Positions 9,066 through 29,900 of a stretch of 31,001 nt of DNA are shown in pieces (position 1 is the first letter of the stretch; each line of letters starts with the position of its first letter). The DNA comes from a virus. A program made the translations under genes and the position numbers. The stretch is from positions 1 through 31,001 of the IMG/VR virus record IMGVR_UViG_3300037320_000125; one strand, 5' to 3'. The notes beneath the pieces were generated by a model. It worked only from the letters and a program-made list of their open reading frames with translations. It had not been told where the DNA came from and did no database searches.

Positions 9066-9106
9066 AAGTTACGTTATGAATAACCATATTACCAACCGAA
9101 TGGTAA
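9066..9106 (-). promoter_or_regulatory. Operator 1 and probable promoter of the replication operon
   Basis: The 18-bp inverted repeat TTACC-N8-GGTAA occupies 9089-9106. Read on the minus strand, TTGGTAATATGGTTAT matches the core of the promoter cassettes at 12353 and 15432. At the same distance (21 bases after TTG) the sequence TAACTTGC occupies the -7 place, a weaker match to TAnnTTTG. The operator covers the -33 position, as expected for repression. Confidence 0.6.
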
Positions 9107-9111
9107 GTTAT

Positions 9112-9258
9112 TTACAATAAAGGTAATTTTAAAGCGGATGCAATTAAGGCGTCTAACTCAATGGTGACAGACTCAAGCCTTTTTATATCAACCAAAATGG
9201 TCGCTAAGTCAAGATCAGCGGTGGTCAATCCGCATAGTGCATTTGCTTCGTGTAACAT
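9112..9258 (-). CDS. Possible small protein, 48 residues
   Basis: A short frame from ATG 9258 encodes an acidic, leucine-rich helical peptide (LTTADLDLATILVDIKRLES, IELDALIASALKLPLL). A longer version would begin at TTG 9306. Nothing recognisable. It lies downstream of the 9341-10036 gene on the same strand and upstream of operator 1. Support is limited to composition and position. Confidence 0.35.
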   Translation of the reverse strand: MLHEANALCGLTTADLDLATILVDIKRLESVTIELDALIASALKLPLL

Positions 9259-9340
9259 TATGTGCGTTATTTTAATGGGTTCGCGTCCTATATTTAGGAA
9301 CGGCAAGTTAAACCAAAAATGGTAACAAACAGGTAATTGG

Positions 9341-10036
9341 TTAACCCATGTTTTGTTTTATATCTGATAAAGCTGACTTAATAACACTCTGGTCCCCGCC
9401 CCTGACGCTCAGAATCCCTTCCAGCCGTGAAATTTGATCTCTCACCTTTTCCCCGGCTGCTTTCGCCCTCTTTAAGGCGTCCTGCATATCCTCGTTATTT
9501 TCTTTCAGGCGGTTCATTTCGCGCTGCCGTTGTTCCCACTCTTTTTTTGCTTTGTGTGCCATTTGTATAAGCTGGATATGATAAGGGGCTTCTATTGTGG
9601 CCCCGGCCTGCAATGCCTGGGCACTTGTAAATGCTCTGTTTATTTTGTCTTGTCCGTTCTGTTCAGCGTAGTTTTTTACCAGGTCAAAGTATTTCCCGCC
9701 CGAAAATTCTTTCACAAACTCGGTGGTTTTGGGCCATCCGTGCGGCTGGGCCAAGTCTTCGTAAAAAAAACGAATAACTGTCTTCAATCTGTCAATTGAT
9801 ATTGACCTTTCGGACGGATCGGACGCATCGGCGTTGATTCTGTTATTGATATAAACGATCTTGAAAAACGATCTTGACACCTCAGCCGGGTATAGAGCAT
9901 TCATATCGCCCTGTAATTTTTCGAAGCTGATCGAGTACACCCTCTGCCCCAGGTTCTTTTGATCCTCCCAGTCCTGAGCCAGCGGAACCTTAATTTTTTC
10001 TAACAGTGTTGTGATTTCCACGCTTTTGGTATTCAT
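9341..10036 (-). CDS. Unknown protein with C-terminal coiled coil, next to the divergent control region
   Basis: The 231-residue protein starts at ATG 10036; an upstream TTG at 10069 lies inside the operator and is rejected. The first 140 residues are mixed helical without a family I recognise. Residues from about 155 to 205 form a charged coiled coil (AHKAKKEWEQRQREMNRLKE, DALKRAKAAGEKVRDQISRL). It is divergently transcribed from the membrane operon across operator 2, a position typical of a phage regulator. No helix-turn-helix is obvious, so its candidacy as the regulator binding the TTACC-N8-GGTAA sites rests on location only. Confidence 0.75.
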   Translation of the reverse strand: MNTKSVEITTLLEKIKVPLAQDWEDQKNLGQRVYSISFEKLQGDMNALYPAEVSRSFFKIVYINNRINADASDPSERSISIDRLKTVIRFFYEDLAQPHGWPKTTEFVKEFSGGKYFDLVKNYAEQNGQDKINRAFTSAQALQAGATIEAPYHIQLIQMAHKAKKEWEQRQREMNRLKENNEDMQDALKRAKAAGEKVRDQISRLEGILSVRGGDQSVIKSALSDIKQNMG

Positions 10037-10053
10037 AGGTAGCTGATTTACCA

Positions 10054-10101
10054 CAAATGTAGTGAGCAATTACCAATATTAAGGTAATTGTCTTAAATTT
10101 G
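10054..10101. promoter_or_regulatory. Operator 2 in a divergent promoter region
   Basis: A perfect palindrome CAATTACC-N8-GGTAATTG covers 10067-10090. It is flanked by exact -7 elements on both strands: TACATTTG on the minus strand (10054-10061) and TAAATTTG on the plus strand (10094-10101). The operator therefore lies between two outward promoters, overlapping the expected -33 region of each. Confidence 0.75.
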
Positions 10102-10134
10102 CAATTGATAGCTGCGCCGCCAACTTTGGCGAAT

Positions 10135-10461
10135 ATGCAACCCCTATACGGTTTCCTAATAATTTGCGCCCTCGTATTTGGCGTTCCTGCGCTTTGCGTC
10201 GTTGGTGTCTTTTGGCACTTAGGGCGCAAGCGAAGCAATGCACTATTGCCGCGCCCCATTAGTCCCCTACCCCCTTGCCCGGAACTACCGTGCCACGATC
10301 CAGAGCGGGCCGAATGGCCTACCGTAGTACTATACCCTGATGTTAAGCACTGCCGACTAGGGCAGGAGGATATGGATAATGTAACCCCGGAACAAATAGC
10401 CCTAGCAACCGCACGAATTGAGGCTAAAAATAACAGCACCATCACATTTACCATCTTATGA
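10135..10461 (+). CDS. Small single-pass membrane protein
   Basis: The 108-residue protein starts at ATG 10135, because the -7 element at 10094-10101 removes the upstream TTG at 10099. Residues 4-28 form one hydrophobic segment (YGFLIICALVFGVPALCVVG), followed by a basic stretch (HLGRKR) and a proline-rich cytoplasmic part with several cysteines. No family is recognised. It overlaps the next membrane protein gene by ATGA (10458-10461). First gene of an operon under operator 2. Confidence 0.75.
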   Translation: MQPLYGFLIICALVFGVPALCVVGVFWHLGRKRSNALLPRPISPLPPCPELPCHDPERAEWPTVVLYPDVKHCRLGQEDMDNVTPEQIALATARIEAKNNSTITFTIL

Positions 10462-11897
10462 GCAAATTAACCCTATCGGACCAACTGAATGGTTCCTTAC
10501 CCATCATTTCCACAACCGCCCGCGCTGCCTTTATCGGTTCGCATCTATTCTTAGCGTTGGGTTCCGGCCTGGCCATCATGTACTTAGCGATTGGCACAAT
10601 TGGCGAATCGCTCACCCCCTGGATCGCCTATACCGTTGGCTGGGCCGGTTCGCTCGTTTGGTTCCGGGCTGTTGAGAACCCGCTTAGGAAGTTCATTCTC
10701 TTTGCCTGGGCTTACCGGCTAACAAGTAAGGAGGAACGCGCCGAACTGACGCAAAACCTGCGCAGGACAGGTAAGGCCAGCGTTACTGTTACCGCAATAC
10801 TCATTGTCGTTACATTGTCGCTTTCGCTGCTGATTAATATGGACGTTGCCGAAGCGGTGACGACTGAACAGGACAGCACAGACGAGATGGCGCAATCGAA
10901 GAGCGTCACAACTAGCTATGACCGTGACGTTGACCTGTTGCGCGATCAGTTGGAAAGGGCGCGGGCGCGGGATGCACAGAACGTTCTTGACGCCACGCGG
11001 CAACGAGCGTCTTGGATAGGCCAAGCGGAAACCAGCAAGGGCCAAGCCATGCGCGATCTGCTCCACAAAGGGAACGGCTGGGCCGCGTCGCAACTACGCC
11101 CTGCAATCAACAGGGCAACCCGTAAAGGGGACGACCATATAAAAGGCGTTAAGGCCGCAGCCGAAGCCCCCACCCTACAATCCCAACTGACCAGCTACGT
11201 GGGCACCCGCTCAGCATCGCGGGACACGGTAGCGGCGATGACTAGCGGATTGGTCGCCGCCCGCCGCGTTGACTTTTTGAACACTAAGGGGCGGCGCAAT
11301 TGGATGCTGTTTGCCGCTTCGTGTTTTGTGCTTTGCATATTTATTTATACGTCGCGCTTACTGGTCCTAGCTTGCTTAGAGACGGGCGAAAAATTGGACG
11401 ATGAAGAACCGGGTGAAGGCATCCCAAAAGTAGCCGTGCGGAAGGTCAAGCAACTCAACGCCTGGTTAGGCGCTAAACTTGATCGCATGGGTTCGGATAA
11501 GTTCGTACTGGCACAGGTTGACGCATCCGTGCCATCCGTGCCAATCCGTGCCGACACGGACGGCACAGATTACGAACCCGTGCCGACACAGGTAGACAAA
11601 ACCCCTCAAACCCGCGTGCCACGCAACTCTCAGGATGACACGGATTCGGGTGTAATCGAAATGAGTACCCGCGAAATTGCGCTACTGGTCAAGCTGTGCC
11701 GCACAACTTACGACCGCATCGAAACCGCCAAAACACCGGCCGGCACGGATTCGGCACGGATCAAGTTCAACGCGGCACGCGATAAGTTGCGTGGGCTGGG
11801 CTTCAAGGTTCGGCCAGGTACTGAGGTTGTAAAAAAGACGGTAAAGAAGTCCGGTAAAGCCGTCAATGTGTCGTATAAAAAGCTGCTAATAGACTAA
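10458..11897 (+). CDS. Large multi-pass membrane protein with charged helical domain
   Basis: The 479-residue protein has four probable membrane helices at about 23-46, 53-70, 108-127 and 283-305. Between the third and fourth is a charged helical domain of about 150 residues (LLRDQLERARARDAQNVLDA, NGWAASQLRPAINRATRKG), probably a coiled coil facing one side of the membrane. The C-terminal 170 residues are soluble, with an acidic linker and a basic end (KKTVKKSGKAVNVSYKKLL). No family is recognised. Linked with two other small membrane proteins near the phage control region, it could act in superinfection exclusion or membrane attachment of replication; both are guesses. Confidence 0.8.
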   Translation: MSKLTLSDQLNGSLPIISTTARAAFIGSHLFLALGSGLAIMYLAIGTIGESLTPWIAYTVGWAGSLVWFRAVENPLRKFILFAWAYRLTSKEERAELTQNLRRTGKASVTVTAILIVVTLSLSLLINMDVAEAVTTEQDSTDEMAQSKSVTTSYDRDVDLLRDQLERARARDAQNVLDATRQRASWIGQAETSKGQAMRDLLHKGNGWAASQLRPAINRATRKGDDHIKGVKAAAEAPTLQSQLTSYVGTRSASRDTVAAMTSGLVAARRVDFLNTKGRRNWMLFAASCFVLCIFIYTSRLLVLACLETGEKLDDEEPGEGIPKVAVRKVKQLNAWLGAKLDRMGSDKFVLAQVDASVPSVPIRADTDGTDYEPVPTQVDKTPQTRVPRNSQDDTDSGVIEMSTREIALLVKLCRTTYDRIETAKTPAGTDSARIKFNAARDKLRGLGFKVRPGTEVVKKTVKKSGKAVNVSYKKLLID

Positions 11898-11900
11898 CTG

Positions 11901-12299
11901 ATGCTACTAGATTACCGACAACTATATCTGTTCCGAATCAGGAAACGCCGCCGCACGGTAAAGGCTCATAAGGTCATCGCTGTGCGGCTACCGTTCGCGG
12001 GCTGGCACGAACGCCGATTGCACAAGCTGTTTGCCTCCGACCGGTACAGCGACGTAAGAACAATACCCTGGCACCAATTCGGCCAGGGCGTTGTCAAGAT
12101 AGGAATCAGCGTTGATGCTGAAAAGCGACGTAAGCAGTTCGAGAACAAACCGGAAAGCGGCAAGACGGAAACGTTCGCGCTCAGCGCCATGCAACGCACC
12201 GCAGCGCGTAACCTTATAATAGGGTACTGGCTCCGGTGGCAGTTGCTCCGGTGGGGCGTGGTTGTCTCGGTTGTGATGTGGTTGTTCTGGGTGGGGTAG
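11901..12299 (+). CDS. Small protein with GIY-YIG-like fragment and C-terminal membrane helix
   Basis: The 132-residue protein begins very basic (FRIRKRRRTVKAHK). It then has HERRLHKLFASDRYSD (36-51), a GVVKIGISVDAEKRRKQF segment (63-80) and ETFALS (90-95), and ends in a Trp-rich hydrophobic helix (about 116-131). The segments resemble pieces of the T5orf172/Mug113 branch of GIY-YIG nucleases, but in a different order from the usual one, and the catalytic GIY-YIG strands are not evident. So nuclease activity is doubtful. It starts three bases after the large membrane protein gene. Confidence 0.65.
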   Translation: MLLDYRQLYLFRIRKRRRTVKAHKVIAVRLPFAGWHERRLHKLFASDRYSDVRTIPWHQFGQGVVKIGISVDAEKRRKQFENKPESGKTETFALSAMQRTAARNLIIGYWLRWQLLRWGVVVSVVMWLFWVG

Positions 12300-12332
12300 G
12301 CGGTGGGCTTTGGGGGGTTAATCGTAAGGCGT

Positions 12333-12421
12333 GGTAATTATATTACTATATATTTGGTAATATGGGTATAGTGGCGTTATATTTGTGGCGTCACCGAATC
12401 AATCACCCCCAATACTTAGAT
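12333..12421 (+). promoter_or_regulatory. Operator 3 with promoter-leader cassette, copy A
   Basis: The inverted repeat TTACT-N8-GGTAA covers 12343-12360, with an extra GTAAT-N3-ATTAC just before it (12334-12346). The -33 TTTG (12353-12356) overlaps the operator; the -7 TATATTTG (12378-12385) lies 21 bases later. A leader with GGCGTCACC and AATCAATC follows to the ATG at 12422. The whole cassette closely matches 15411-15486. Confidence 0.8.
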
Positions 12422-13444
12422 ATGAGTACCCAACTAACTACCGTGCTGTCTGATGCTGGCCTTGACCAGAACAGCAATGCCGCAATCTTAGAAAAATTCG
12501 CGGCGTTCGACGCCCAAGCAAGCGAATGGATGGCTAAGGCCAAAACCTTAGTTGTCACAGGCGCAGACCAAAAAGACGAAATAAAGCAAGCCCGCGAAGC
12601 GCGGTTGGCATTGCGCAAAATCCGCACCGAAGCGGACAAAACGCGCAAAGAACTAAAGGCCGAATCGTTGCGCTACGGTAAGGCCGTTCAAGGGGTGTAC
12701 AATTTCCTTGAGTACAAAATCAAGCCGATTGAAGACCACTTACAATCCCAGGAGGATTTCGCTAAGATCGCGGAACAGAAGCGGGTTGACGCGCTGCGGG
12801 CAGAACGTGAATTGCTAGTAAACGACCTTCGCGAGTTCGTGGGCTACGGTGACGACTTCGGCGCAATGTCCCAGCCCTCATTTGACGCTGTTCTTGCGAG
12901 CGCGAAGCAGCAACGGGCCGACCAAATCAAGCACAACGAAGAAGCTAAGGCGGCGCACGAGGCTGAGGTATTGCGCCAAGCGGAAGACCAGCGCAAAATG
13001 AGGGCTGAGAACGAACGGTTACGTTCCGAGGCTCAAGCCCGCGAAGCTGCGCTAAAAGTGGAACGTGATTTGGTCGCCGCTGAGCAAAAGGCCGCTGCTG
13101 ACGCTGCACGTATTGAGCGCGAAGCCGCCGCAGCTAAGGCCAGGGCTGAGCGTGAAGCCGCCGAAATTGCACGGCGAAAAATCGCTAATGAATTGGCCGC
13201 GGCAAAACGGGCGCAGGCTGAGCAGGACGCCAAGGTTGCAGCACTGGCAAAGGCCAAAGCTGAACAGGAGCGTAAAGCCAACGCCGCCCCCGATAAGGCG
13301 AAGCTGAGGGCATTCCTTGCCGGCCTTAGCTGCGGCGGTGACCCTTCCCTCAATTCAGTAGACGCAACCGAAATACTTAACGACTTCCGCAACGACCTTG
13401 CGGCCATCGTTTCCACGGCAATCAGCCGCGTGGAAGCACTATAA
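12422..13444 (+). CDS. DUF1351-like coiled-coil protein of the recombination module
   Basis: The 340-residue protein starts at ATG 12422; an in-frame ATG at 12362 is upstream of the promoter and so not used. Residues 35-110 (LVVTGADQKDEIKQAREARL, LRKIRTEADKTRKELKAESL, YNFLEYKIKPIEDHLQ) match the helical pattern I know from DUF1351-type phage proteins, which commonly precede recombinase or exonuclease genes. Residues 160-300 are a long Ala/Lys/Glu-rich coiled coil. It is headed by the operator 3 promoter and closed by a terminator at 13478-13521. It probably serves recombination or ssDNA processing; mechanism unknown. Confidence 0.78.
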   Translation: MSTQLTTVLSDAGLDQNSNAAILEKFAAFDAQASEWMAKAKTLVVTGADQKDEIKQAREARLALRKIRTEADKTRKELKAESLRYGKAVQGVYNFLEYKIKPIEDHLQSQEDFAKIAEQKRVDALRAERELLVNDLREFVGYGDDFGAMSQPSFDAVLASAKQQRADQIKHNEEAKAAHEAEVLRQAEDQRKMRAENERLRSEAQAREAALKVERDLVAAEQKAAADAARIEREAAAAKARAEREAAEIARRKIANELAAAKRAQAEQDAKVAALAKAKAEQERKANAAPDKAKLRAFLAGLSCGGDPSLNSVDATEILNDFRNDLAAIVSTAISRVEAL

Positions 13445-13477
13445 GACTAACCCCGGCGCAGCTATCACTACCCCGGA

Positions 13478-13521
13478 GCCGGGCGGCGCAACCCAAAATA
13501 GACGACGCCCGGCATTTTTTT
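13478..13521 (+). terminator. Intrinsic terminator after the DUF1351-like gene
   Basis: GCCGGGCG (13478-13485) pairs with CGCCCGGC (13506-13513), followed by A and seven T residues. No clear promoter is seen between this terminator and the next gene at 13561, so partial read-through or antitermination may feed the exonuclease gene. Confidence 0.8.
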
Positions 13522-13560
13522 AACCAAAGCCCTAAAGGTAAGGGCGCAATTTTTTATATT

Positions 13561-14112
13561 ATGAGTAAGATAGAACTACCAACGTCAACGGCCACGCGGT
13601 TCAGGTCTTTTGCCGCAGGTCCAAGCATTCACGAAGTTGAGCAACGCGCCGCACGCTTCGCCGCGCTGGAAAGTGCAGACGAAACCAAAGCTCCGCAAAT
13701 CGAAACGGGCACTTGGTCCCCCCGCACGGGGGACGAATTGCGCGGGTTCTTTTTGGGCATCGCTACTTTAGGGCGCAACCCACGGCCCGAAGAGGTTGAC
13801 CAGGTAAAGCTGATGAAAGAGAACATCGAAGCGGGGGACGAAGAAACGATTGGCGGCCTCACCCCGGCCTATATTGACGAATACCGCAAGGGGCTTGTTC
13901 CGTTTTCGGCGGGGGCTATTGAGACAAAGAACGGGCTTCGTTTTTTGTCGAGAATCCACGCGATGGAAGTATTCGCATCCGGGCGAATTCCGCAAAATGG
14001 CGGCGTGTGGATCAAGTGCATCCACGAGAAAAGCGGCGAAATGTCTAAGTTTGACATTCGCGCTATTGACAGCGGCGGGGACGTTGAAGATACAACCTAC
14101 ACAGAGGAATGA
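13561..14112 (+). CDS. Unknown recombination-module protein, possibly ssDNA-binding
   Basis: The 183-residue protein lies directly before the YqaJ exonuclease gene and overlaps it by ATGA (14109-14112). Its second half (RTGDELRGFFLGIATL, FSAGAIETKNGLRFLSRIHA, GGVWIKCIHEKSGEMSKFDI) is beta-rich and could be an OB fold. The end is acidic (DVEDTTYTEE), like the C-terminal tail of ssDNA-binding proteins. In phage recombination modules this slot often holds an SSB or annealing protein. This assignment is inference; no diagnostic motif is visible. Confidence 0.7.
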   Translation: MSKIELPTSTATRFRSFAAGPSIHEVEQRAARFAALESADETKAPQIETGTWSPRTGDELRGFFLGIATLGRNPRPEEVDQVKLMKENIEAGDEETIGGLTPAYIDEYRKGLVPFSAGAIETKNGLRFLSRIHAMEVFASGRIPQNGGVWIKCIHEKSGEMSKFDIRAIDSGGDVEDTTYTEE

Positions 14113-14885
14113 TTAGGGACGGTATAACAATTCAGTCGGTCGAGGATGCGCGGGCAGCAATGCCCGCCATCTTTGATAAAATTGACGCGGACAGAGGCAA
14201 AAGAGAACGCCGCGCCGAATGGCTCGAAGCCAAGCGGGGCAAATTCGGTGCCAGTTCAGCCGGTAAGTTGTGGACTTCAACGTTGCAACTGGCCGACAAC
14301 GCAACCAGCCGGGGTTATCTTGCGGAAAAGGCGGCAGAGATTGACGGGGCAATGTCTTCTGAACTCGGTGGCGCTTCCGTCAAGTGGGGCAGCGAGCAGG
14401 AAGGGCCGGGAATGCTTGAGTTTATAGAGCGCAGCGGCCTTGCGGTAACCCATCACGGCGAAGATCAGGAATGGATTGCGGCCAGTTGGTCGGATCAAAT
14501 CGGCTGCACCCCTGACGGCATCGCAACCAACACGGAAGGGCAGCGCATCCCGATTGAGCAAAAGAACCCCCACAGCCGGGCCATTCACGCCCGGTACATG
14601 ACAATGCAGGACGGCGCGGACCTGCTGAAATACGCACATTCGTACTGGTGCCAGGTTCAACACCAAATAATGGTCCTAGATGCCCCGTTCGGCATCTACT
14701 TCACGCGGGACAGTCGCCGCACAGAGCAAGCCGCACGGATAGGGTGGTGGGTAGTACCAAGGGACGACGCTTTTATTGACCAGCACAAGGCGCGGCTGTT
14801 AGATGCAGTTAAAGAACGGGACGACCTATTCAACGCTCAAGCGGGGCGGGTTTGGGTTGATTTATCAAATTTTATAAAGCAATAA
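14109..14885 (+). CDS. YqaJ/lambda-Exo-type recombination exonuclease
   Basis: The 258-residue protein is a YqaJ-family viral exonuclease. It has the expected order of motifs: KRGKFGASSAGKLW (42-55), WGSEQEGPGMLEF (93-105), GCTPDGI with catalytic D136, IEQKNP with the E150-x-K152 pair, and YWCQVQHQIMVL (179-190). Such enzymes degrade one strand of double-stranded ends to prepare single-stranded DNA for annealing recombination. It partners with the neighbouring recombination proteins. Start and stop overlap both neighbours (ATGA before, TAATG after), so the three are co-translated. Confidence 0.92.
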   Translation: MIRDGITIQSVEDARAAMPAIFDKIDADRGKRERRAEWLEAKRGKFGASSAGKLWTSTLQLADNATSRGYLAEKAAEIDGAMSSELGGASVKWGSEQEGPGMLEFIERSGLAVTHHGEDQEWIAASWSDQIGCTPDGIATNTEGQRIPIEQKNPHSRAIHARYMTMQDGADLLKYAHSYWCQVQHQIMVLDAPFGIYFTRDSRRTEQAARIGWWVVPRDDAFIDQHKARLLDAVKERDDLFNAQAGRVWVDLSNFIKQ

Positions 14886-15316
14886 TGCCCCACCATACCG
14901 CATACATTCGCAACGGTAAAATCCATTCGGACACGCCCCGCGCTCAGTACCTGGCTGAGGTATTGGCGCAAATACCGGACGGCCCGGTACTAATAACGAC
15001 CGAACCGCTTCCCCGGAAACGTTCGGGGCCGTTCAATCGGTACTATCACGGCACCGTCTTAAGTCATCTACTCCACGCGCTGAACGATGCGGGGAATGAT
15101 GTGGCGGTATCGGACCACAACCGGAAGATCGTACACGAGGAGCTACGGGACGGGCCACTATATCCTGATCCGGTGGCGGGCAAGAAGAACAGCACGGCCA
15201 GGCTTACTGATCAGCAGTTTCAGCGGTTCGTTAGGGATGTGGTGAGCGTAACGGATTACTGTTTAGGCTACGCTATACCGGCCCCGCCGGTTTACTGGGA
15301 AACGGTTGACGATTAA
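14885..15316 (+). CDS. NinB-like recombination protein
   Basis: The 143-residue protein has the pattern of NinB/YbcN-like phage proteins: KRSGPFNRYYHGTVLSHLLH near residues 45-64, then DHNRKIVHEELRDGPL, the conserved STARLTDQQFQRFVRDV, and YAIPAPPVYWETVDD at the end, comparable to the usual ...G..IPdP.e. ending. Lambda NinB works in phage recombination and can modulate the RecF-type pathway. The gene is downstream of the exonuclease with a TAATG junction. A terminator follows at 15370-15400. Confidence 0.7.
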   Translation: MPHHTAYIRNGKIHSDTPRAQYLAEVLAQIPDGPVLITTEPLPRKRSGPFNRYYHGTVLSHLLHALNDAGNDVAVSDHNRKIVHEELRDGPLYPDPVAGKKNSTARLTDQQFQRFVRDVVSVTDYCLGYAIPAPPVYWETVDD

Positions 15317-15335
15317 AAACTAAGACTCCACGCAC

Positions 15336-15479
15336 GATTTGGTGACACACGTTGCGCGTGTTGAGCATACCCCCGCTGGATTAGTCCGGCGGGGGTTTTT
15401 ATTTAATGTGCGGTAATTGTATTACTATATATTTGGTAATATGGTTATAACGGAGCTATATTTGTGGTGTCACCAAATC
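15336..15479. repeat. 13-bp inverted repeat flanking a terminator and operator-promoter
   Basis: GATTTGGTGACAC (15336-15348) and GTGTCACCAAATC (15467-15479) are perfect reverse complements 118 bases apart. The right arm lies in the leader of the 15487 gene and has a diverged counterpart in the leader of 12422; the left arm lies just after the NinB-like gene. Confidence 0.75.
15370..15400 (+). terminator. Intrinsic terminator after the recombination module
   Basis: CCCCCGC (15370-15376) pairs with GCGGGGG (15389-15395), with an inner GGA/TCC pairing, followed by five T residues and an AT-rich stretch. Confidence 0.85.
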
Positions 15480-15486: not shown

Positions 15487-15951
15487 ATGATACAACCTAC
15501 TCCAACCTGCCTAACTCTAGAATTGGAAGGCATATACGCCGAAGGGCATTACTTATTTGCTGAGTTTGTCGGCGGGTCAATGATGCGTTACCCATTCCCA
15601 GCCGAATGCATCGAAGGCGTTGTATTCGACTTTGATACTCAGGCCGGCACCTGGGAAATTGAGGGGGAAGAAGACACGGTGACGATGACCACCGCCGAAC
15701 TATTGGACAACGCCGCAGCGGGTGAGGTTGAGTTCTATTTGGGGTTGTACAATTTGTACCATTTCAAGTACACTGATCACGCACTCAATGCCTGGCAATG
15801 GCTTACCACAACCCGAACTGCTCAGGTCTACGCGCCTACCCTGGCCGACGCGTACGCCGCGTTCCACGCCCGTTTCAAGGGTGCAACCAACGTGGACAAT
15901 ACCAGCCTTCAAAGGGTTAGCCAGGGCCGCGTACTAGTGCAGGCCGCATAA
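15487..15951 (+). CDS. Unknown acidic protein under its own operator-promoter
   Basis: The 154-residue protein is acidic and mixed alpha/beta, with GIYAEGHYLFAEFVGGSMMR near the start and a helical second half (YTDHALNAWQWLTTTRTAQV, LADAYAAFHARFKG). No family, signal peptide or membrane segment is seen. It is a single-gene unit: a strong terminator lies before it, operator 4 controls it, and a tRNA-like element follows. Sharing its control cassette with the recombination gene at 12422 suggests coordinated early expression. Confidence 0.78.
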   Translation: MIQPTPTCLTLELEGIYAEGHYLFAEFVGGSMMRYPFPAECIEGVVFDFDTQAGTWEIEGEEDTVTMTTAELLDNAAAGEVEFYLGLYNLYHFKYTDHALNAWQWLTTTRTAQVYAPTLADAYAAFHARFKGATNVDNTSLQRVSQGRVLVQAA

Positions 15952-15957
15952 GAAAAA

Positions 15958-16044: not shown

Positions 16045-16079
16045 TCGAGGTTTTTTTCATAATAGTATGGTTTTTAGTC

Positions 16080-16110: not shown

Positions 16111-16134
16111 AAACCAAACCCAAAATATAAAATA

Positions 16135-21293: not shown

Positions 21294-22772
21294 TTAGGCG
21301 TAGTGAAGGGCGGCGGCGGCAGCGGGGCGCTGCTCCAAATCCTTGACGCGGGCGGCGATTTCGGAACGTTCAACGCTGACCGGAACGCCGTCATCGGTAT
21401 GCGTAACAATTCGGTCAACAACCAGGTCCATGCGTATGCCGAACAGTTCTTTTGCGCGGTCATCGTCAGCGTTGAATTGTAAGAAAGCGGCGCACCACAC
21501 CAGCGCGTCCCGCACGTCCTCCTTTTCGCGGATGACCATGACGCGGCTACCGAACCAGTCGGCTACGTAGGCGCGTACAATCGTTGCCAGGTACTCAGTG
21601 CTGACGTCGCCAGTTACGCGAACATCAAGCGCGGAAACAATCAGGTTTTTAAGGGCGCGTTCATCATTCGCCCGCCATTGCAAAACGTAGGATTGGCCGG
21701 TTGACGGGAAAAGGGTTGTGGCCACGTTGGGGCGGCGGGGTATTACGGGTTCGGCTGGCTGCTCCGGCTCTTCGTCAACCGGATCGTCAACCGGATCGTC
21801 CGGCGTGTCCGGCTCGTCTGGTTCGCCCGGCTGCAAATCAAGGTATTCGGTAAGTACCGGCGTGCCCATTCCTGTTTCCCGGTCAATACCAGGGCTGAGT
21901 ATATCGGTAATGTTCGCGGCCAAGAACGCGGTAAGTTGCGCTTGGGTTACAATTTCAGGGTAGGCGCTGAGCAACAACGCCGCAACCCCGGCCATTTGTG
22001 GGCACGCCATTGATGTCCCGGATAACCGAGCGTAGCCGCCGCTCCTGTGTGTAGAATATATCTGACCGCCCGGCGCGGCAATATCTACTTCGTTGCCAAC
22101 GCTGGAAAATCCAGAGCGGGACGTACCTGGCCGGTCAGTGCTGGCCACGGCGATAACGGGACCGTAGCGGCCTGGTGCCCCTACCGTGCTTTTTGATCCG
22201 TCACCGGCCCCGCTGTTTCCGGCGGCGGCAAAGATGAAACAGCCCTTTTCTATCGCGTAATCAATAGCAGACTTTAGAACCGGCGGCGTGGCCATACCAG
22301 CCGGGCCGCCAAGCGACATACTAATAATGCGCTTCTTGTTTTTGATCGGGCCGGATTCGGGAATATCCGCAGCGTATCGGACCTGATCAGCAACCCAATT
22401 AAACGAACCGCCGCCCGTGTCGTTCAGCGCCTTCAACGCAACCAGCTTTGCGCCTGGTGCAATGCCGATCACGCCGATATTGTTATCAGCCGCCGCGCTG
22501 ATTCCTGCGCAGTGCGTACCGTGCCCGTGCGCGTCCGGCGGCGGGCTGTTCGTAATGTTGCGGTCGTACTCTGGTAAGCAATTAGGGCGCAGGTCGGGGT
22601 GGTCGGTGAATTGCCCGGCGGTGTCAATGATGAATATCACGGCACCTTCGCCACGCGAAGCGCGGTAAAAGTCTTCGGCCTTCAAATAGGCGTTGCCCCA
22701 ATCTACTACCTGCCCACCCTCAAGGGCTACAAGTTCGATGCTGTACGGGTCAAGTTGAATATCTTTTTTCAT
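21294..22772 (-). CDS. Subtilisin-like serine protease with C-terminal extension
   Basis: The 492-residue protein is an S8 protease. Catalytic residues are D50 (VIFIIDTAG), H84 (AHGHGTHCAGI), oxyanion N186 (AAAGNSGAG) and S254 (SGTSMACPQMAG), all with standard flanks, so activity is expected. There is no signal peptide or long propeptide, so it acts in the cytoplasm or in the virion. A Pro/Glu/Asp linker (about 307-345, DDPV repeats) leads to a C-terminal domain of about 150 residues unknown to me. It lies between endolysin and portal in the late operon. Roles in virion maturation or in attacking host proteins at entry are possible; the operon already has an S49 head protease. Confidence 0.9.
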   Translation of the reverse strand: MKKDIQLDPYSIELVALEGGQVVDWGNAYLKAEDFYRASRGEGAVIFIIDTAGQFTDHPDLRPNCLPEYDRNITNSPPPDAHGHGTHCAGISAAADNNIGVIGIAPGAKLVALKALNDTGGGSFNWVADQVRYAADIPESGPIKNKKRIISMSLGGPAGMATPPVLKSAIDYAIEKGCFIFAAAGNSGAGDGSKSTVGAPGRYGPVIAVASTDRPGTSRSGFSSVGNEVDIAAPGGQIYSTHRSGGYARLSGTSMACPQMAGVAALLLSAYPEIVTQAQLTAFLAANITDILSPGIDRETGMGTPVLTEYLDLQPGEPDEPDTPDDPVDDPVDEEPEQPAEPVIPRRPNVATTLFPSTGQSYVLQWRANDERALKNLIVSALDVRVTGDVSTEYLATIVRAYVADWFGSRVMVIREKEDVRDALVWCAAFLQFNADDDRAKELFGIRMDLVVDRIVTHTDDGVPVSVERSEIAARVKDLEQRPAAAAALHYA

Positions 22773-22873: not shown

Positions 22874-23490
22874 AAGGCAAGGAGTAAGGCGATTATACTA
22901 AGGATTAAAGCGATTGTACCCATTGCCCAGGTGTCTTTGTTCGTCTCCGGTTCGGTTGGTTCCGGTTCGGTTGGTTCCGGTTCGTCCGGTTCAGCATCGG
23001 GCGGCAAAGTGTAGTACTCATTAACCCGCCGCATTATCTCAACGCGGGGCATAAACTTACCAGGGCAAAGCGTCGCTACATAATCGTTATGCCAAACGAT
23101 ATTTAGCCGCCGCCCTAGTTCAAAGTTTTCCTTTATAATTTCATTTATAAGTGAATCAACCTGGTCTGTTGTCGGTGCGTGCAGCTCCATATTTCCGCGC
23201 AGGCAAATGGGCAATGCTGTCCAATTCATACTACCGCCCCGGCAGTGCCAGCCCTGTTCTGTTCTCTTGCGGCAAACGTAAACCGTGCCATCATAATCAA
23301 TAGACTTGTAGTAAGCCACGCCCCACCAGTCGTTGCCCTCAACGTGCCATGCCGCATCGGTGAAAATGTCGTTTTCTGCGCCGCTGTTGTGGACCATTAC
23401 GTTGACCAAATTGGCCTGATTCAAGAACGGCGGGAACTTGGTTGGGTGGCGCTTTAGTTCGGTTGATATGTTGCGGGTTCGGTAGTTCAT
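22870..23490 (-). CDS. Endolysin: N-acetylmuramoyl-L-alanine amidase with C-terminal membrane anchor
   Basis: The 206-residue enzyme is of the Amidase_2/T7 lysozyme type and cleaves the amide bond between muramic acid and the peptide stem. Zinc ligands are visible: H34 in VMVHNSG, H134 in VWHNDYVA and C142 in LCPGKF; the eight-residue spacing of the last two equals that in T7 lysozyme. After the catalytic domain, a linker of Pro-Glu-Pro-Thr-Glu repeats (about 165-183) leads to a C-terminal hydrophobic helix, MGTIALILSIIALLLAL. No N-terminal signal is present, so the anchor would hold it at the inner membrane until release, an unusual layout. Confidence 0.88.
   Translation of the reverse strand: MNYRTRNISTELKRHPTKFPPFLNQANLVNVMVHNSGAENDIFTDAAWHVEGNDWWGVAYYKSIDYDGTVYVCRKRTEQGWHCRGGSMNWTALPICLRGNMELHAPTTDQVDSLINEIIKENFELGRRLNIVWHNDYVATLCPGKFMPRVEIMRRVNEYYTLPPDAEPDEPEPTEPEPTEPETNKDTWAMGTIALILSIIALLLAL
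22946..22990 (-). repeat. 15-bp tandem repeat in the endolysin linker
   Basis: The unit TCCGGTTCGGTTGGT occurs twice perfectly (22946-22960, 22961-22975) and then in part. It encodes the PEPTE linker repeats. Confidence 0.85.
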
Positions 23491-23495
23491 TAATA

Positions 23496-24161
23496 TTATT
23501 GATTACTAGTGTACAGTTTGCGAATTATGTACTTCCCGTCGATGGTTGTAAAAACGTCGCGTCCTTCTTGCATCCTATAAAAAGACAAAATACCTGTCTC
23601 AAGGTAGGCGAAGTCTCTTATTCCTATTTCGTCCTTGCTGTAAGCGAAACACTTTGTCCCCTTATCCTCAGTAACAGCCGCAAAACGACCATTAGGTCTA
23701 CGTATGATTATAAATTCAGTACGAGTAGTGTCGCCAGTTTCGCGGAACTCCCAATCACCTACGTAGATACCATCTAGCCCTATATCAATTCGGTCCGTGT
23801 CAATGCCGGTAAACGATTGAAATAAATTAGGGTAAACTTCCCCTACCGCCTTCGATGTGATGAAAAATTCACGGGCCAGTTTTGCAACCTGTTTCCGGCC
23901 ACTTACTCTAATGCGGCCTGATCGCAAACCTCGCAAGTCTGCACGTAAGATATACCTAGCAACTCCGGTGCTGTCTAGGTATTCCGATGTAATCGTAGAC
24001 GATGTTTTTTCTCCGTTTGGCCCCTCAAACATCACAAAGGTTTTCACCTTGTAGGTGCTGTCATTTACCGTGATCACTTCTGCGCTCAGGGAATCAGGGT
24101 AGTTCTGCGCGGTGGCCGTTAGGCTGATGGCGAAGAGTAGAATTAAGATTAAGTACTTCAT
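23496..24161 (-). CDS. Secreted protein of the late operon, unknown
   Basis: From ATG 24161 the 221-residue product begins MKYLILILLFAISLTATAQ, a clear Sec signal with cleavage before QN. The mature part is beta-rich and resembles lipocalin-like or immunoglobulin-like repeats only in composition (FVMFEGPNGEKTSSTITSEY, IGLDGIYVGDWEFRETGD, FAAVTEDKGTKCFAYSKDEI). No family is recognised. It lies between the endolysin and the fibre-like gene, with which it shares the signal-peptide feature, so both may reach the host envelope. Confidence 0.78.
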   Translation of the reverse strand: MKYLILILLFAISLTATAQNYPDSLSAEVITVNDSTYKVKTFVMFEGPNGEKTSSTITSEYLDSTGVARYILRADLRGLRSGRIRVSGRKQVAKLAREFFITSKAVGEVYPNLFQSFTGIDTDRIDIGLDGIYVGDWEFRETGDTTRTEFIIIRRPNGRFAAVTEDKGTKCFAYSKDEIGIRDFAYLETGILSFYRMQEGRDVFTTIDGKYIIRKLYTSNQ

Positions 24162-24169
24162 AGTTTTGT

Positions 24170-26332
24170 TTATTTTAGGATTCGGATTGTCCACGGCAGG
24201 TTGGTGCGAACTGTTGCGTGCGTTATGGCGCTACTTGTCACGTTTGCAGCGCCTATAATTACTTGCGACTGCCCGGAGCGTATTGTATAGATTATGCCAG
24301 CTGTTACGCCCTCGACTGGGCTTAGAACTGCCGGGTTGCCAATTCTTGCCCCGGCCAAAGGAACCGTAACCTCAACAATAGAGTGCGCGGGAATAGTACC
24401 GAACGACGGCGCTGCAGTCCCGGTTAAATCATTGGTAGGCTGAGGGTAAGCCTCGTTGTAATTTTGATTCCAGCCGGAAAAGTCAGCCCCAACGGTTGCC
24501 CTAGTCCACGACTTCCCCAACTTTACAAACCTGTTTTGTACCGTCCCTATTTCGCTGTACGTCTGCATCTTCGAGCTTGATCCATCTGCAACTGGAAGGG
24601 TTGTAACCCAGCCGTCTACCGCGCCGGTCGGAGCATTCGTGCAGCCGTCACAAATCACGGTTCCGAACACCAGCGCGTCGAGGTCGCCGGTATAATCATT
24701 CGCTGCCGCTGAGGATAGATTACCCCAGGGCAATTCGTTCCCTATTGTGCCGTCAACCTCGCTTTCAAGGTAGCCGTTGTTATCTGCGAAATCGTCGACT
24801 TGGGATTCTGTTAGTTTTTCGTAGTAGCTCCCTTCTTCGCCATCAAGTTTGAAGGCGTTTACGTCTGTTAATCCTGAACCATCGCCAGTAAAAGAATAGG
24901 CTGTAATATCTGCGGTGGTCGTCGCTCCTTCGTCTGTTACTTGTTGAAGGCTCGGTACGTCTGTTAGAAATTGAGATATGTCTAAACTCTCTGAATTATA
25001 ATCTAGCGCCCAGTCCGAATATTCGCCTTGAAATGATCTCCTTTTATAATGATGCTCAAACCCACGGTTAAAAGGCCACAGTATTTGGATGTCACCCAAG
25101 GTATTATCTATGTTCTCAACCACAAATATTGTGTTCGTAGGTAGACCGGCGGGAACGTTGGTGTAGTTAGCTGCGTTGTAAACGCTTCCCGCTATCCCTT
25201 GCGTGCTGTTGAATATAGTATTAAAATTCGTTCCGCTCACCGCGTCGCTCCGATTGCCTACAATGTTGGCCAACTGAATCCACTGCGATTGTGCAGGGCT
25301 ACTGCCTCGTCTTTGCGCTTGATACCACACCCCCGGTGAACCTGACGTTTTTAATTCTGCGGCAAAAACCCCTCTAAAGTTGGTGTACGTAGCCAGTGTA
25401 AATGGCAAATATTCCGCTGAAAGGGCAGACTGAGGGCTCCCGTTTGTCTGATGGTTGAGAGTCGATCTATGCGCCCCGACATCCACGAGCGTAAAGTCAT
25501 TTATCGGACCGCCTTTAATTCCCGATGAGTTTATGTAGTGGTCAGTAGACAATGTTGGGACTAACACACTCGAAGACCTTGATAGCGAGAATTGGCCGCT
25601 CGTCAAATCGTAGCTAAGTGCTTGGTTGTCTGTGTTTGCGTCGTTAGCATCAGCGTAGTTCTGCGCTGCTGTTTGCGCGTTCGAGACGTCTGCATCAGTA
25701 GGCAAGGCGGCGATGGCGGCAACGTTCTCGCTTATGCCTGTACTGTTCGTGGCAATATCCGCAACTACATCAGTATCATCATAGATGTCGTTTGCGTCGT
25801 TAGCATCAGCGTAGTTCTGCGCTGCTGTTTGCGCGTTCGAGACGTCTGCATCAGTAGGCAAGGCGGCGATGGCGGCAACGTTCTCGCTTATGCCTGTACT
25901 GTTCGTAACAATGTCAGCTACCACATCAGTATCATCATATATTTCGTTTGTCGGGTCGCTATCCGCATCGTTCACCAAATCAGTGAAACCAACTTCAATA
26001 ACGGAAAGGGGGGCGCTCCTAGTTAGGCTTAGTGTTTTAGATGTTGAGCCGGTGATAAGACCAGACGTTACAACCCCATCATTCTGGCCCTCAAGCGCAT
26101 TTATAGCACCTGCGTTCGCGTCAATATCTACGCGATGAACAGCCAAGCTATCGTTTGCCTCAGCTATAAAATAAGACTTCAACGTGTCAAGCCGAAAAGC
26201 AGCCGGAAACCAGCGCGTTTTGGTTTCCAGCCGGTCCGCGTTTTGCGGGTTCTTTATAGTTGGCAAATTCCCGGTTTGCGCGAATACGCAAGCGGGGAAT
26301 AGTGCAAGGAATAGTATTAAAAATGTCTTCAT
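24170..26332 (-). CDS. Fibre-like repetitive protein with signal peptide
   Basis: The 720-residue protein starts with a Sec signal, MKTFLILFLALFPACVFAQ. Residues about 130-235 hold two nearly identical 52-residue repeats (IYDDTDVVADI...NSTGISENVA...YADANDAN), predicted elongated and helical. Two later segments look like pyocin-knob-type domains (ending GVWYQAQRRGSSPAQSQWIQ and YKRRSFQGEYSDWALDYNSE), found in tail fibres. The C-terminal part is beta-rich. Position after the capsid genes fits a receptor-binding fibre, but a signal peptide is odd for a virion part that assembles in the cytoplasm. It may instead be exported to the host surface. Confidence 0.75.
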   Translation of the reverse strand: MKTFLILFLALFPACVFAQTGNLPTIKNPQNADRLETKTRWFPAAFRLDTLKSYFIAEANDSLAVHRVDIDANAGAINALEGQNDGVVTSGLITGSTSKTLSLTRSAPLSVIEVGFTDLVNDADSDPTNEIYDDTDVVADIVTNSTGISENVAAIAALPTDADVSNAQTAAQNYADANDANDIYDDTDVVADIATNSTGISENVAAIAALPTDADVSNAQTAAQNYADANDANTDNQALSYDLTSGQFSLSRSSSVLVPTLSTDHYINSSGIKGGPINDFTLVDVGAHRSTLNHQTNGSPQSALSAEYLPFTLATYTNFRGVFAAELKTSGSPGVWYQAQRRGSSPAQSQWIQLANIVGNRSDAVSGTNFNTIFNSTQGIAGSVYNAANYTNVPAGLPTNTIFVVENIDNTLGDIQILWPFNRGFEHHYKRRSFQGEYSDWALDYNSESLDISQFLTDVPSLQQVTDEGATTTADITAYSFTGDGSGLTDVNAFKLDGEEGSYYEKLTESQVDDFADNNGYLESEVDGTIGNELPWGNLSSAAANDYTGDLDALVFGTVICDGCTNAPTGAVDGWVTTLPVADGSSSKMQTYSEIGTVQNRFVKLGKSWTRATVGADFSGWNQNYNEAYPQPTNDLTGTAAPSFGTIPAHSIVEVTVPLAGARIGNPAVLSPVEGVTAGIIYTIRSGQSQVIIGAANVTSSAITHATVRTNLPWTIRILK
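25634..25945 (-). repeat. Two 156-bp tandem repeats in the fibre-like gene
   Basis: Copies 25634-25789 and 25790-25945 are identical over about the first 110 bases and differ at scattered positions afterwards, for example GTGGCAATATCCGC against GTAACAATGTCAGC. The 156-bp period keeps frame and encodes 52 residues. Confidence 0.9.
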
Positions 26333-26400
26333 CTACTTTGGATATTCAGGCCAAGACGGAACCTAAAACAGTAGCCGCCTTGAGGTTTTTTTGTGCAATT

Positions 26401-26432
26401 AAGGCGTGCCGGTAACAGTACCGGCACGCCTT
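26401..26432. terminator. Perfect 14-bp hairpin between capsid cluster and fibre gene
   Basis: AAGGCGTGCCGGTA (26401-26414) and TACCGGCACGCCTT (26419-26432) pair perfectly around a 4-base loop. No T run follows on the minus strand (AATTGCAC), so it may reduce transcription into the fibre gene, stabilise the capsid transcript end or be a processing site rather than a plain intrinsic terminator. Confidence 0.6.
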
Positions 26433-26445
26433 ATGTATTACGGGT

Positions 26446-27099
26446 CTATGACTTTGCCGTCTTGACTTTAGGCTTTGCGTCGAACGTGGCGGCCGAAGTT
26501 GACAGGGGGTTACCAATCAACGCGGGCGTAGCGGCTGCAATCATGTCAGCAATTGGCACGTTCGCGTGAAGCGGTGCAAATTCGAACTGGCCTGAAAAGT
26601 CGATTTCGTCCCGGCTTTCGTCACCATCGAATACGCCGGAACTGTCGAGGTGGCGGCTAATCTGGACCTTATCCAGCGGGCGGTCAAACGCTACGCCGTC
26701 GTAGTCGATGCCCACGACGCGCTGGGTTCCATCAGCCATGTAAAAGTGAAGGGTCAGGTCACAACAGGCGGCCATGCGCTTAAGCGAGTTGGTGCGGGTC
26801 CGGTCCTTGCCTTCAACAATCATTTGAAAAACAACGTCGTAAGCGCCGTTTTCGCGGGTGTACGTAGAATCAAACTGCCCGCTTTTGCGCTCAAAGTTCA
26901 GTTCAACGTGCTTACCGCCGGTCAGGTACGTGTACCCTAAAACCTGTTCATCGTCCGCGCTGAATTTTTCGGCATCTGCCAACATAGCCGCCCAGTCAAT
27001 CAGGGAGCTTTGGGCAGCGAATACCCGGCGAACCCCTTTCTTTTTGGTACAGGTGGTGGGAATACCAATCCCGTCTAATTCACACACGATAAGTGCCAT
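26446..27099 (-). CDS. Probable virion structural protein next to the major capsid gene
   Basis: The 217-residue protein is beta-rich with evenly spread charged residues (YLTGGKHVELNFERKSGQFD, DLTLHFYMADGTQRVVGIDY, RDEIDFSGQFEFAPLHANV) and a basic Lys-rich end (KPKVKTAKS). It sits directly after the major capsid gene and before a strong hairpin. Position and composition suit a head decoration or tail-tube-like protein. I recognise no family, so the virion role is inference from context. Confidence 0.7.
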   Translation of the reverse strand: MALIVCELDGIGIPTTCTKKKGVRRVFAAQSSLIDWAAMLADAEKFSADDEQVLGYTYLTGGKHVELNFERKSGQFDSTYTRENGAYDVVFQMIVEGKDRTRTNSLKRMAACCDLTLHFYMADGTQRVVGIDYDGVAFDRPLDKVQISRHLDSSGVFDGDESRDEIDFSGQFEFAPLHANVPIADMIAAATPALIGNPLSTSAATFDAKPKVKTAKS

Positions 27100-27155
27100 G
27101 ATGTTTTTGTTTTATGGTTAGGGGACCAAGCCGTTAAGCCTGGCCCCGGTTTGGT

Positions 27156-28385
27156 TTACGATGGTTCGTTGAAGCGGTAGGAACCGGAAATGTAGTCGGT
27201 GTCATTGATGCCGACCGCGCCCAACATATGACTTAGGTAGGTCGTCTTGCCTAGGTCTTCGTTGCGCGTGCTGCGCTGAATACGTACAGCAACGTTTGCG
27301 CCGCCACGCTCAGGAATGGCACCAAAGGAGCCGCCCAACTGGATGACCCCGGTTAAGGTCAGGTACTCAAAGTGCGGCGTTCCGCTTAGGTACTCGCTGA
27401 ACACCTCAACCTCTTGAACAGGAATCAACGGGATGCCGTCAATCATGTAGATCGTCAGCGGCGTGGTGCCGCCGCGCCCGTTGGCAACCAGCAATTCGCT
27501 GGTCGTGATCCGGGGCCGGTTCGTTGCGGTTGCAACGCCCTGGTCTAGGTAAGCATCGTACGCGCCGCCGATCATGGACGGGCTTACCATCCAGACCGGA
27601 ATATTGCGACCGCCGAAGCCGCCGCGCCCTCCGTTACGAACCGCGCTGCGCAGCTTCTTAGGGCTGGCCGCTACGCGGGCGTCGAACCGGGCAATGATGT
27701 CACCGGTAAACTCTTCGCCGTCCTGACTGATGTCGCCGTTAACGATAAGGCCGTCGTCCAGGTGGGCGTATTTGGCGCTGTCCTGAACCTTGAGCGCCCG
27801 GAGCGCCGTAATCCAACCTTGCCCGACCGCAGCCGAACGGGTGAACGCATCGCGGATGCTGGTTGGCAGGTTGTCGGTAAACGACATTACACCGGTGAAC
27901 AGGCCGCCCGCCGTAAGCGTAGCGCGTGCGCCCAAGGTGGTGCTGTCGAGAATCAAGCGGGTGAGCCTGTCGGTCAGGGCAACGCCGCCTTCGCTCATCC
28001 CTACACTATCACTGCTTCCGTACTCAATAAACCGTTCGAACGTACTGTCAAAAAGTTCGTCGTAGCACTGTTCCACGTTGACCTTCATCCGGTACGGGGA
28101 AATGCTTTTTTGCGCCATGCGGAACTCGCCCTGCGGTGTCCATGCGCAACTGTTGTGCGGCTGGATCACGAGGGAAGGGCCGGTGGGGTAGTGCATCACG
28201 TATTCGCCGGTGCTGTTGAAACGCATATAATTATACATTCCGTAGGCCGACTGATACGCGCCCAGGTGGGAGTTGTATTGAGCGTCGGCAAGGGCGTTGA
28301 CTGAGCCTACCTGGAACTCCATTGTTGCGGCGCTGCCTACATCGGTGAAGTCCGGCTCAATTAAAAACTGTTCGTTGGGAATCAT
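27156..28385 (-). CDS. Major capsid protein (probable)
   Basis: The 409-residue protein follows the S49 protease-scaffold gene and has the size and composition of an HK97-type major capsid protein. Features include an N-terminal region, a long Gly-containing middle (RGGFGGRNIPVWMVSPSMIG), and the P-domain-like segment with ALRALKVQDSAKYAHLDDGL. A beta-rich end follows (IPLIPVQEVEVFSEYLSGT, FEYLTLTGVIQLGGSFGAIP, VAVRIQRSTR). Gene order protease, scaffold, capsid supports this. Sequence alone does not prove the family, and the mature cleavage site cannot be placed. Confidence 0.7.
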   Translation of the reverse strand: MIPNEQFLIEPDFTDVGSAATMEFQVGSVNALADAQYNSHLGAYQSAYGMYNYMRFNSTGEYVMHYPTGPSLVIQPHNSCAWTPQGEFRMAQKSISPYRMKVNVEQCYDELFDSTFERFIEYGSSDSVGMSEGGVALTDRLTRLILDSTTLGARATLTAGGLFTGVMSFTDNLPTSIRDAFTRSAAVGQGWITALRALKVQDSAKYAHLDDGLIVNGDISQDGEEFTGDIIARFDARVAASPKKLRSAVRNGGRGGFGGRNIPVWMVSPSMIGGAYDAYLDQGVATATNRPRITTSELLVANGRGGTTPLTIYMIDGIPLIPVQEVEVFSEYLSGTPHFEYLTLTGVIQLGGSFGAIPERGGANVAVRIQRSTRNEDLGKTTYLSHMLGAVGINDTDYISGSYRFNEPS

Positions 28386-28434
28386 TTTAGATTATTGATT
28401 GATGTCATAAAGGCCGGGCCTTATAGACGATTAT

Positions 28435-28866
28435 TTAGTACTTGCTGCCAAACTTTTTGTCGTGATTGACGGCGGTCGCGAACTGTTCGCGGTCGGTAGC
28501 GTGTCCGTTTGATTTCGGCGTTGGCTTGCCGATTTTGGCGGCGGCCAGTTGCGTTTCAAGGTCCGCGATTTGCGTTTCAAGGTCCGCGATTTGCGCGGCG
28601 CGTTCGGTGGCGGCGTCGTCGAATGCGGCAATTGTCACGGCCTGGCTTTCGATCGTTTCGGCCAGGGCTTCCACCCGCTCGCTCAGCGCGGTAAAGGCTT
28701 CGTCCGTTTCCGGGATTGCCGCGCCTTCCGGTTCGGCCGGTGCCGTTTCGGAGGCCGGTTGCAGCGTTTCCGTTACTTGTTCGTCGGTGGCATCCTCAGC
28801 CATCGCGGACCCGAAAATGCTGTTCAGCAAGCGGATAAAGCCGCCGCGTTCATTGGTATTACTCAT
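28435..28866 (-). CDS. Possible nested scaffolding protein from an internal start
   Basis: Within the protease frame, ATG 28866 begins a 143-residue product, MSNTNERGGFIRLLNSIF onward, made of an amphipathic start, an acidic Pro/Glu/Thr-rich region and a coiled coil. It lacks the protease domain and matches the boundary between domains. Lambda C/Nu3 and several other phages make a scaffold this way. The AT-rich sequence just before the ATG is compatible with Bacteroidota initiation. Expression is inference. Confidence 0.35.
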   Translation of the reverse strand: MSNTNERGGFIRLLNSIFGSAMAEDATDEQVTETLQPASETAPAEPEGAAIPETDEAFTALSERVEALAETIESQAVTIAAFDDAATERAAQIADLETQIADLETQLAAAKIGKPTPKSNGHATDREQFATAVNHDKKFGSKY

Positions 28867-29763
28867 GGTGGTAATTGGTTGGGCCGCGTCCTGAACGGTT
28901 GCAGCGGAATAGGTATTTTTTTTCTTTCGTTTCAAGAATTGCATTGCGTCGGCAAACGTGCCCACCGCGTCGATCAGGCCGATCTGTGCGGCTTCGGTGC
29001 CGGTGAAAAGGTCTCCTGATTGTAGCCGGTTGGCCTGTTCTTTGGTGCGTCGCATCGCGGGCCGCATCGCTTCCACGTTGTCGATAAAGCCCTGCGCCCG
29101 ATCGCTGACGTAATCCAAAAGCGGTTCCAAATCGCCTTCCAACAATGCACGGCTGGGCAGGTTTTTCATTGTTGACTGACGGGCGTAGATGTCAAGTTGG
29201 GCCTCCTGTATTTCCTTTATCGCCTTGCGGTCAAGGCTGACCATAGTACCGACTGAGCCGACAACCGCCGTAGTGCTTGCTGCTACGATGTAGTCAGCAG
29301 CCAACGCGCCGCGAAGGGCTGCACTGGCCAGGGTTTGAGCGTAGACGACCGTTTGCGTTTTGCCGCGCCGCCGAATATCCAGCAGGGTATTTTGCAATTC
29401 TGTTCCGGCTACTGATTCGCCGCCGCCGCTGTTCACCTCAAGCACAATACCCGAAATATTAGGGTTCGCGTCCGCTGCGGCCAGGTCAGCGTTCAGCGAC
29501 CGAACACCACGCGAACACATACCGTCTTCAAGCATCATTGCGCCCGATAGGATCAGGTGGGCAATAGAACCGTCCTGTACCTCAGCGCCAAAATTGGCGG
29601 CGGCGGTGCTGATCCCTTCGGATAGTACGAACGTGCTTTGCGAACGCTCGACCGCTTCGCCATCGGATAGCAAAAAAGCGGACAGGTATTGTAAGCCGTG
29701 CGTGGCTTCGATTTCCCAGGTTGCGCTTAGCAACGCCCGCTCAACTGTTCTTTGGTTCGGCAT
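28435..29763 (-). CDS. S49-type head maturation protease with scaffold-like C-terminus
   Basis: The 442-residue protein has an SppA/S49 (ClpP-fold) domain at about 60-290. The strand ISGIVLEVNSGGGE (103-116), the nucleophile region TLASAALRGALAADYIVAAS with probable catalytic S147, VVGSVGTMVS (167-176), and K200 in STMKNLPS as candidate general base all fit, and FTGTEAAQIGLID is conserved. The C-terminal 140 residues are acidic with coiled-coil heptads (QIADLETQIADLETQL), as in scaffolding domains. The protease would cleave scaffold and capsid during head assembly. An internal ATG at 28866 may start a separate scaffold product. Confidence 0.85.
   Translation of the reverse strand: MPNQRTVERALLSATWEIEATHGLQYLSAFLLSDGEAVERSQSTFVLSEGISTAAANFGAEVQDGSIAHLILSGAMMLEDGMCSRGVRSLNADLAAADANPNISGIVLEVNSGGGESVAGTELQNTLLDIRRRGKTQTVVYAQTLASAALRGALAADYIVAASTTAVVGSVGTMVSLDRKAIKEIQEAQLDIYARQSTMKNLPSRALLEGDLEPLLDYVSDRAQGFIDNVEAMRPAMRRTKEQANRLQSGDLFTGTEAAQIGLIDAVGTFADAMQFLKRKKKNTYSAATVQDAAQPITTMSNTNERGGFIRLLNSIFGSAMAEDATDEQVTETLQPASETAPAEPEGAAIPETDEAFTALSERVEALAETIESQAVTIAAFDDAATERAAQIADLETQIADLETQLAAAKIGKPTPKSNGHATDREQFATAVNHDKKFGSKY
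28550..28591 (-). repeat. 21-bp tandem repeat in the scaffold coiled coil
   Basis: Two perfect copies of a 21-bp unit (28550-28570, 28571-28591) encode two identical heptads of the coiled coil (QIADLET). Confidence 0.9.
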
Positions 29764-29847
29764 GGTGCGAATTTGCTACCGTGCCGGGCGCGTTGGCGAT
29801 ATGTTAGCGTTAAGGCGGGTGCAGGGTTTCACCCTTTCTATATTATT

Positions 29848-29900
29848 TTACCCTAATCTTGGTTAGTGCTTGCAAAGTTATAATATTGGTTGTATATTTG
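29848..29900 (+). promoter_or_regulatory. Operator 5 and promoter of the 29938 gene
   Basis: TTACC-N8-GGTTA, one mismatch from the operator consensus, covers 29848-29865. Just after it TTG (29870-29872) and TATATTTG (29893-29900) form an exact promoter with a 20-base spacer. On the minus strand TAACTTTG (29873-29880) is a -7 match facing the late operon, so operator 5 may affect both directions. Confidence 0.65.

Follow-up and report, generated by a model that had tools for sequence, protein, structure and literature searches.

The KfrA proteins of plasmids RK2, R751 and RA3 are mostly helical, end in a coiled-coil tail and have an operator that overlaps their own promoter, this operator being a 24-nt imperfect palindrome in RK2 and a set of iterated 9-nt repeats in RA3 (PMC7783346). 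In lambdoid phages, CI and Cro act on near-identical palindromes, arranged as operator triplets on divergent early promoters. In mycobacteriophages, one repressor site, the stoperator, recurs at several places in a phage genome (PMC9283540).

The window, the whole stretch of 31,001 nt analysed here (positions 1 to 31,001 of IMG/VR record IMGVR_UViG_3300037320_000125), was compared with a near relative, G001 (IMGVR_UViG_3300028217_000215; 43.9 kb, probably complete because it has a terminal repeat of 127 bp), which is about 97-99% identical to it, and with a more distant one, G005 (IMGVR_UViG_3300040801_004504; 43.7 kb, 64% in the terminase), which is too far away for the operators to be aligned site by site; no relative intermediate between these two and covering the operators was found. 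Like the lambdoid systems, the window carries near-identical palindromes on divergent early promoters, with presumed autoregulation, but its operators are single and no HTH repressor is recognisable beside them. Moreover, neither a tyrosine integrase (PF00589) nor a serine recombinase (PF00239) was matched in the window or G001, so that lysogeny is not shown; a PF00589 match is present in G005 (42204-42638). The recurrence of one site recalls the stoperators, from which the window differs in having just four sites, palindromic, all on promoters and none among late genes. The two forms of the KfrA operator resemble the palindrome of the window and an iterated repeat of G005, respectively, and by analogy the candidate regulator described below, which may resemble KfrA in its predicted helical build and in the placement of its operator, most likely works like plasmid KfrA. 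It is not filed as a KfrA because a search for the KfrA_N domain (PF11740) at E 10 came back empty for the window, G001, G005 and G406, a further terminase relative; furthermore, the window sites cover several promoters, in contrast to the one locus that KfrA occupies in RA3. The control system is real but of an ordinary viral kind, and its regulator belongs to no known family.

To our knowledge, early gene control in uncultured Bacteroidota phages has been little studied. The phage probably infects Bacteroidota, judging from its terminase and promoters. The terminase matched 1028 phage records from many hosts, all below 60% identity, and of the best matches listed, the first is an unassigned faecal phage and all the others are Bacteroides phages; the promoters fit the TAnnTTTG box, which in flavobacteria is the -7 box of sigma-A, at positions -12 to -5 (PMC9723704).

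Operators and their promoters

The original prediction had taken five 18-bp stretches as operators of a phage-wide regulon. All five are present in the sequence at the positions given, and four of them (9089, 10070, 12343 and 15422), all intergenic, share a palindrome of about 24 bp with the core TTAC[CT]-N8-GGTAA.

9089..9106 (-): operator O1, TTACCATTCGGTTGGTAA read leftward, in the promoter of the leftward replication unit; 24 bp identical in G001
9064..9071 (-): -7 box of the replication promoter, TAACTTGC, 17 bp after O1; predicted transcription start (TSS) about 9059
10070..10087 (no strand): operator O2, TTACCAATATTAAGGTAA (CAATTACC-N8-GGTAATTG), between divergent promoters
12343..12360 (+): operator O3, TTACTATATATTTGGTAA; -7 box TATATTTG at 12378-12385; unchanged in G001
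15422..15439 (+): operator O4, TTACTATATATTTGGTAA; -7 box TATATTTG at 15457-15464; promoter a duplicate of that of O3
9059, 10049, 10106, 12390, 15469: predicted TSSs

With at most one mismatch, TTACYN8GGTAA gave 17 strand-matches in the window against 3.7 expected, a number equalled in none of 100 shuffles. At the same tolerance, TTACC-N8-GGTAA occurs at 5 sites in 2.8 kb of intergenic DNA (0.2 expected; none of 2000 Markov simulations reached 4) and at 2 sites in 28.2 kb of coding DNA, an intergenic excess that bears out the original prediction against a motif equally frequent in coding DNA. Scored with a 24-bp position weight matrix (PWM), the four sites reach 25.9-34.8 against 9.3 bits at the next place, with maxima of 4.3-13.8 in shuffled sequence; since the matrix was trained on the same sites, this test is partly circular, and it is the gap rather than the absolute score that counts. 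By this matrix the window has exactly four strong sites, with none among the late genes, and G001 has the same four and none besides. In G001, O1 and O3 are unchanged over their 24 bp and O2 and O4 differ by 1 base each, O4 being a perfect palindrome there, and the flanks of the sites diverge by about 1-8%; this retention says little because G001 is so close to the window. An in-gene match at 10712, overlooked earlier, lacks the extended symmetry.

The fifth stretch, 29848..29865 (+), was rejected as an operator: at 9.3 bits it lies inside the background range, and it is broken in G001, which reads TTTTGCCCTAAAC---GTTA there. The four sites are kept in G001 and 29848 is not, and the placement on early promoters holds for five promoters and not for the right early unit. 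Nor is the regulon phage-wide, because all four strong sites are confined to a 6.4-kb early block (9.1-15.4 kb). In its sites the window fits a shared-operator early regulon, with near-identical palindromes confined to promoters at four intergenic places. Two promoter regions of the right early unit, 29821-29911 and 30448-30538, are duplicates of each other (73% identical), with TTGC and TATATTTG boxes and without a strong operator.

O2 overlaps both divergent promoters, the leftward one serving the candidate regulator gene and the rightward one the 10135 operon, and is flanked by their -7 boxes (TACATTTG at 10061-10054 (-) and TAAATTTG at 10094-10101 (+)). The operators at 9089, 12343 and 15422 cover part of the -33 region, each with a spacing of exactly 17 bp to the -7 box, and at the latter two the right half of the palindrome itself provides the -33 TTTG. 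From the TSS estimates, the operator centres are predicted to lie at -38.5 at these three promoters and at -29.5 and -27.5 at the divergent pair. Sites 12343 and 15422 are not independent of each other because both lie within one duplicated promoter of about 92 bp (82% identical). The box TAACTTGC agrees with TAnnTTGY, the shorter box of the flavobacterial motif SM5, which most likely belongs to an alternative sigma factor (PMC9723704); the replication promoter of G005 (L076 5240-5345) has at the matching place a -7 box, TACCTTGC, that is likewise of the TAnnTTGY type. The genes behind the operators are as follows.

6392..8808 (-): first genes of the replication unit behind O1, namely 8506-8808, 8309-8509, initiator 7320-8315 and DnaC-like helicase loader 6392-7423, from PHROGs matches
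10135..12299 (+): operon rightward of O2, with open reading frames for proteins of 108, 479 and 132 aa that have hydrophobic membrane-like stretches; family searches of the products gave no match
12422..15316 (+): operon behind O3, including a YqaJ/RecE-like exonuclease (14109-14885)
15487..15951 (+): gene behind O4, for a 154-aa protein with no assigned function

Candidate regulator and proposed mode of action

We propose, with a probability of about 0.6, that the early block is controlled by an autoregulated repressor, the predicted coiled-coil protein encoded at 9341-10036, acting as a dimer on the four operators and their five promoters.

9341..10036 (-): candidate regulator P0001, 231 aa, with a predicted long C-terminal helix; the G001 copy is 96% identical

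In the predicted mechanism, a phage-encoded dimer, most likely this 231-aa coiled-coil protein, would bind the four operators, repress its own promoter and, at the other promoters, block sigma-factor contact, and its accumulation would turn down the early units together, namely the replication unit, the candidate regulator gene itself, the 10135 operon, the recombination operon and the 15487 gene. We infer repression because the operators overlap the -33 region. Alternatively, the regulator may be an activator at 9089, 12343 and 15422, where a centre near -38.5 would be class II-like, and a repressor of its own promoter at 10070. The fixed 17-bp spacing at these three promoters and the weak -7 box at 9089 speak for activation, but two of the three spacings stem from one duplication, and the promoters at 12343 and 15422 should need no activator because TTTG and TATATTTG are both full there; we therefore regard activation as unlikely and keep to repression as the preferred reading.

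The original prediction of one dimeric regulator for most early units is well supported for the four sites and five promoters, and not for the right early unit or most of the phage. From the three binders that it had named, we infer the 9341-10036 product, favoured because it alone has its own promoter covered by a strong site. The 58-residue basic protein at 30242 is excluded, since G001 lacks it yet keeps the operators. A MerR-like protein was also rejected as the regulator, its HTH part being lost in G001, where the operators are kept.

4192-4482 (-): MerR-like protein with an HTH; in the G001 copy the HTH stretch is missing in frame

The third named binder is the XRE protein (30843, right edge of the window), of which G001 has an 89% conserved copy. 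Like an HTH_23-type protein whose gene lies past the edge of the window (G001 8587-8925), and unlike the 9341-10036 product, it has a recognisable HTH. That one of these two binds the same four operators nevertheless appears unlikely: in G001 no strong operator lies near either gene, and the XRE protein is disfavoured because there is none near its own gene or promoters; moreover, G005 has the HTH_23 protein at about 50% identity but lacks this operator.

For the favoured 9341-10036 product, family searches recognised no DNA-binding or HTH domain and gave no weighty family match. Two AlphaFold models of it are too poor to show an HTH; the C-terminal helix, predicted at 141-211, is their most confident part (pLDDT about 70-80 in part, the model being otherwise poor). 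Searches of phages, plasmids and viral contigs yielded no homologue besides the G001 copy and a doubtful protein of G005, and none of the other terminase relatives gave a counterpart. A search of 395 genomes from the phylum to which a Bacteroidales genome belongs gave no more than matches that were short or of the coiled-coil type, and comparison with the PDB by sequence and by fold gave nothing credible. When viral contigs were scanned for the extended operator, only the matches in G001 were followed by a promoter, the others looking like chance or coding matches. Tentatively, the 9341-10036 protein could found a phage regulator family whose members join a coiled-coil tail to a DNA-binding head of undescribed type, with fast operator turnover on stable promoters and a regulon that includes a structured, terminated leader RNA.

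A different repeat at the matching promoters of G005

The window operator is absent from G005 when no mismatch is allowed. G005 has instead seven copies of AGTTTGCA in its 43.7 kb, against 0.87 expected and a maximum of 3 in 100 simulations. All copies lie within 5.3-7.9 kb. Six of the seven stand at three matching promoters, namely three at the rightward one, two at that of the replication unit and one at that of the regulator gene; the seventh is found where the regulator gene ends. The position and orientation of the 9341-10036 product are taken in G005 by a protein of about 235-244 residues; it matches the candidate weakly (shuffle P 0.02-0.06; not significant by BLASTP), and searches for its own homologues led nowhere. 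These observations suggest that G005 has a parallel regulon with another operator, and hence operator turnover. The parallel is support rather than proof, because the TTTG in AGTTTGCA is also a -33 element and the homology is marginal.

This arrangement also bears on the reading that a host regulator, exploited by the phage, binds the sites. No phage protein with a clear HTH adjoins the operators, and the candidates compared were phage proteins; however, related promoters with another repeat in the same places fit better with a phage-encoded, co-evolving regulator, and we consider a host regulator improbable. For the proposed repressor encoded at 9341-10036, four sites on five promoters, a favoured binder and a relative with another repeat would make recognition and turnover testable, and the outcome would give an orphan protein a function.

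Other terminase relatives have intergenic repeats of their own, different again (G406, G412, G413, G414 and G418), among them ATCAATAG (G406, L172), AAACACTT (G412, L178-L179) and AGTGATTA in an 11-bp array (G414, L180-L181).

Replication unit and its predicted leader RNA

Initiators often bind repeats within their own promoters, and O1 fronts the replication unit, but hardly any weight can be given to the operators being initiator-binding sites, since all four sites persist in G001 despite the replacement of the initiator's DNA-binding N-terminal half, a comparison that already largely refutes this reading, and since the initiator gene itself contains iteron-like repeats (3 x 20 nt) at 7932-8005. 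Between the window and G001 that N-terminal half is wholly different, the remainder of the protein being 93% identical, and the initiator gene of the window, with its three 20-nt repeats, is perhaps an exchanged origin module.

The transcript from the 9089 promoter is predicted to begin with a structured leader.

8880..9059 (-): predicted structured leader RNA, 180 nt, upstream of the first replication gene and ending in a terminator-like hairpin with T6 after it

The fold has a z of -6.1, and the terminal hairpin, at -28.8 kcal/mol, is followed by the T run at about 8880. The leader of G005 is also structured (z -3.75) and similar in layout; neither leader matched Rfam above thresholds. The predicted leader is laid out as if it were controlled by attenuation, antitermination or a small RNA.

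Structural region and other observations

In the structural region, 21294-22772 (-) encodes a subtilisin-like serine protease that is 58% identical in G005 and has matches of 39-40% in Bacillus phages. A G005 protein (L076 7242-7850) ends, by sequence reading, in what looks like a T9SS-type sorting domain. A tandem duplication of 156 bp (25634-25945; 95% identical) lies within the 720-aa open reading frame 24170-26332.
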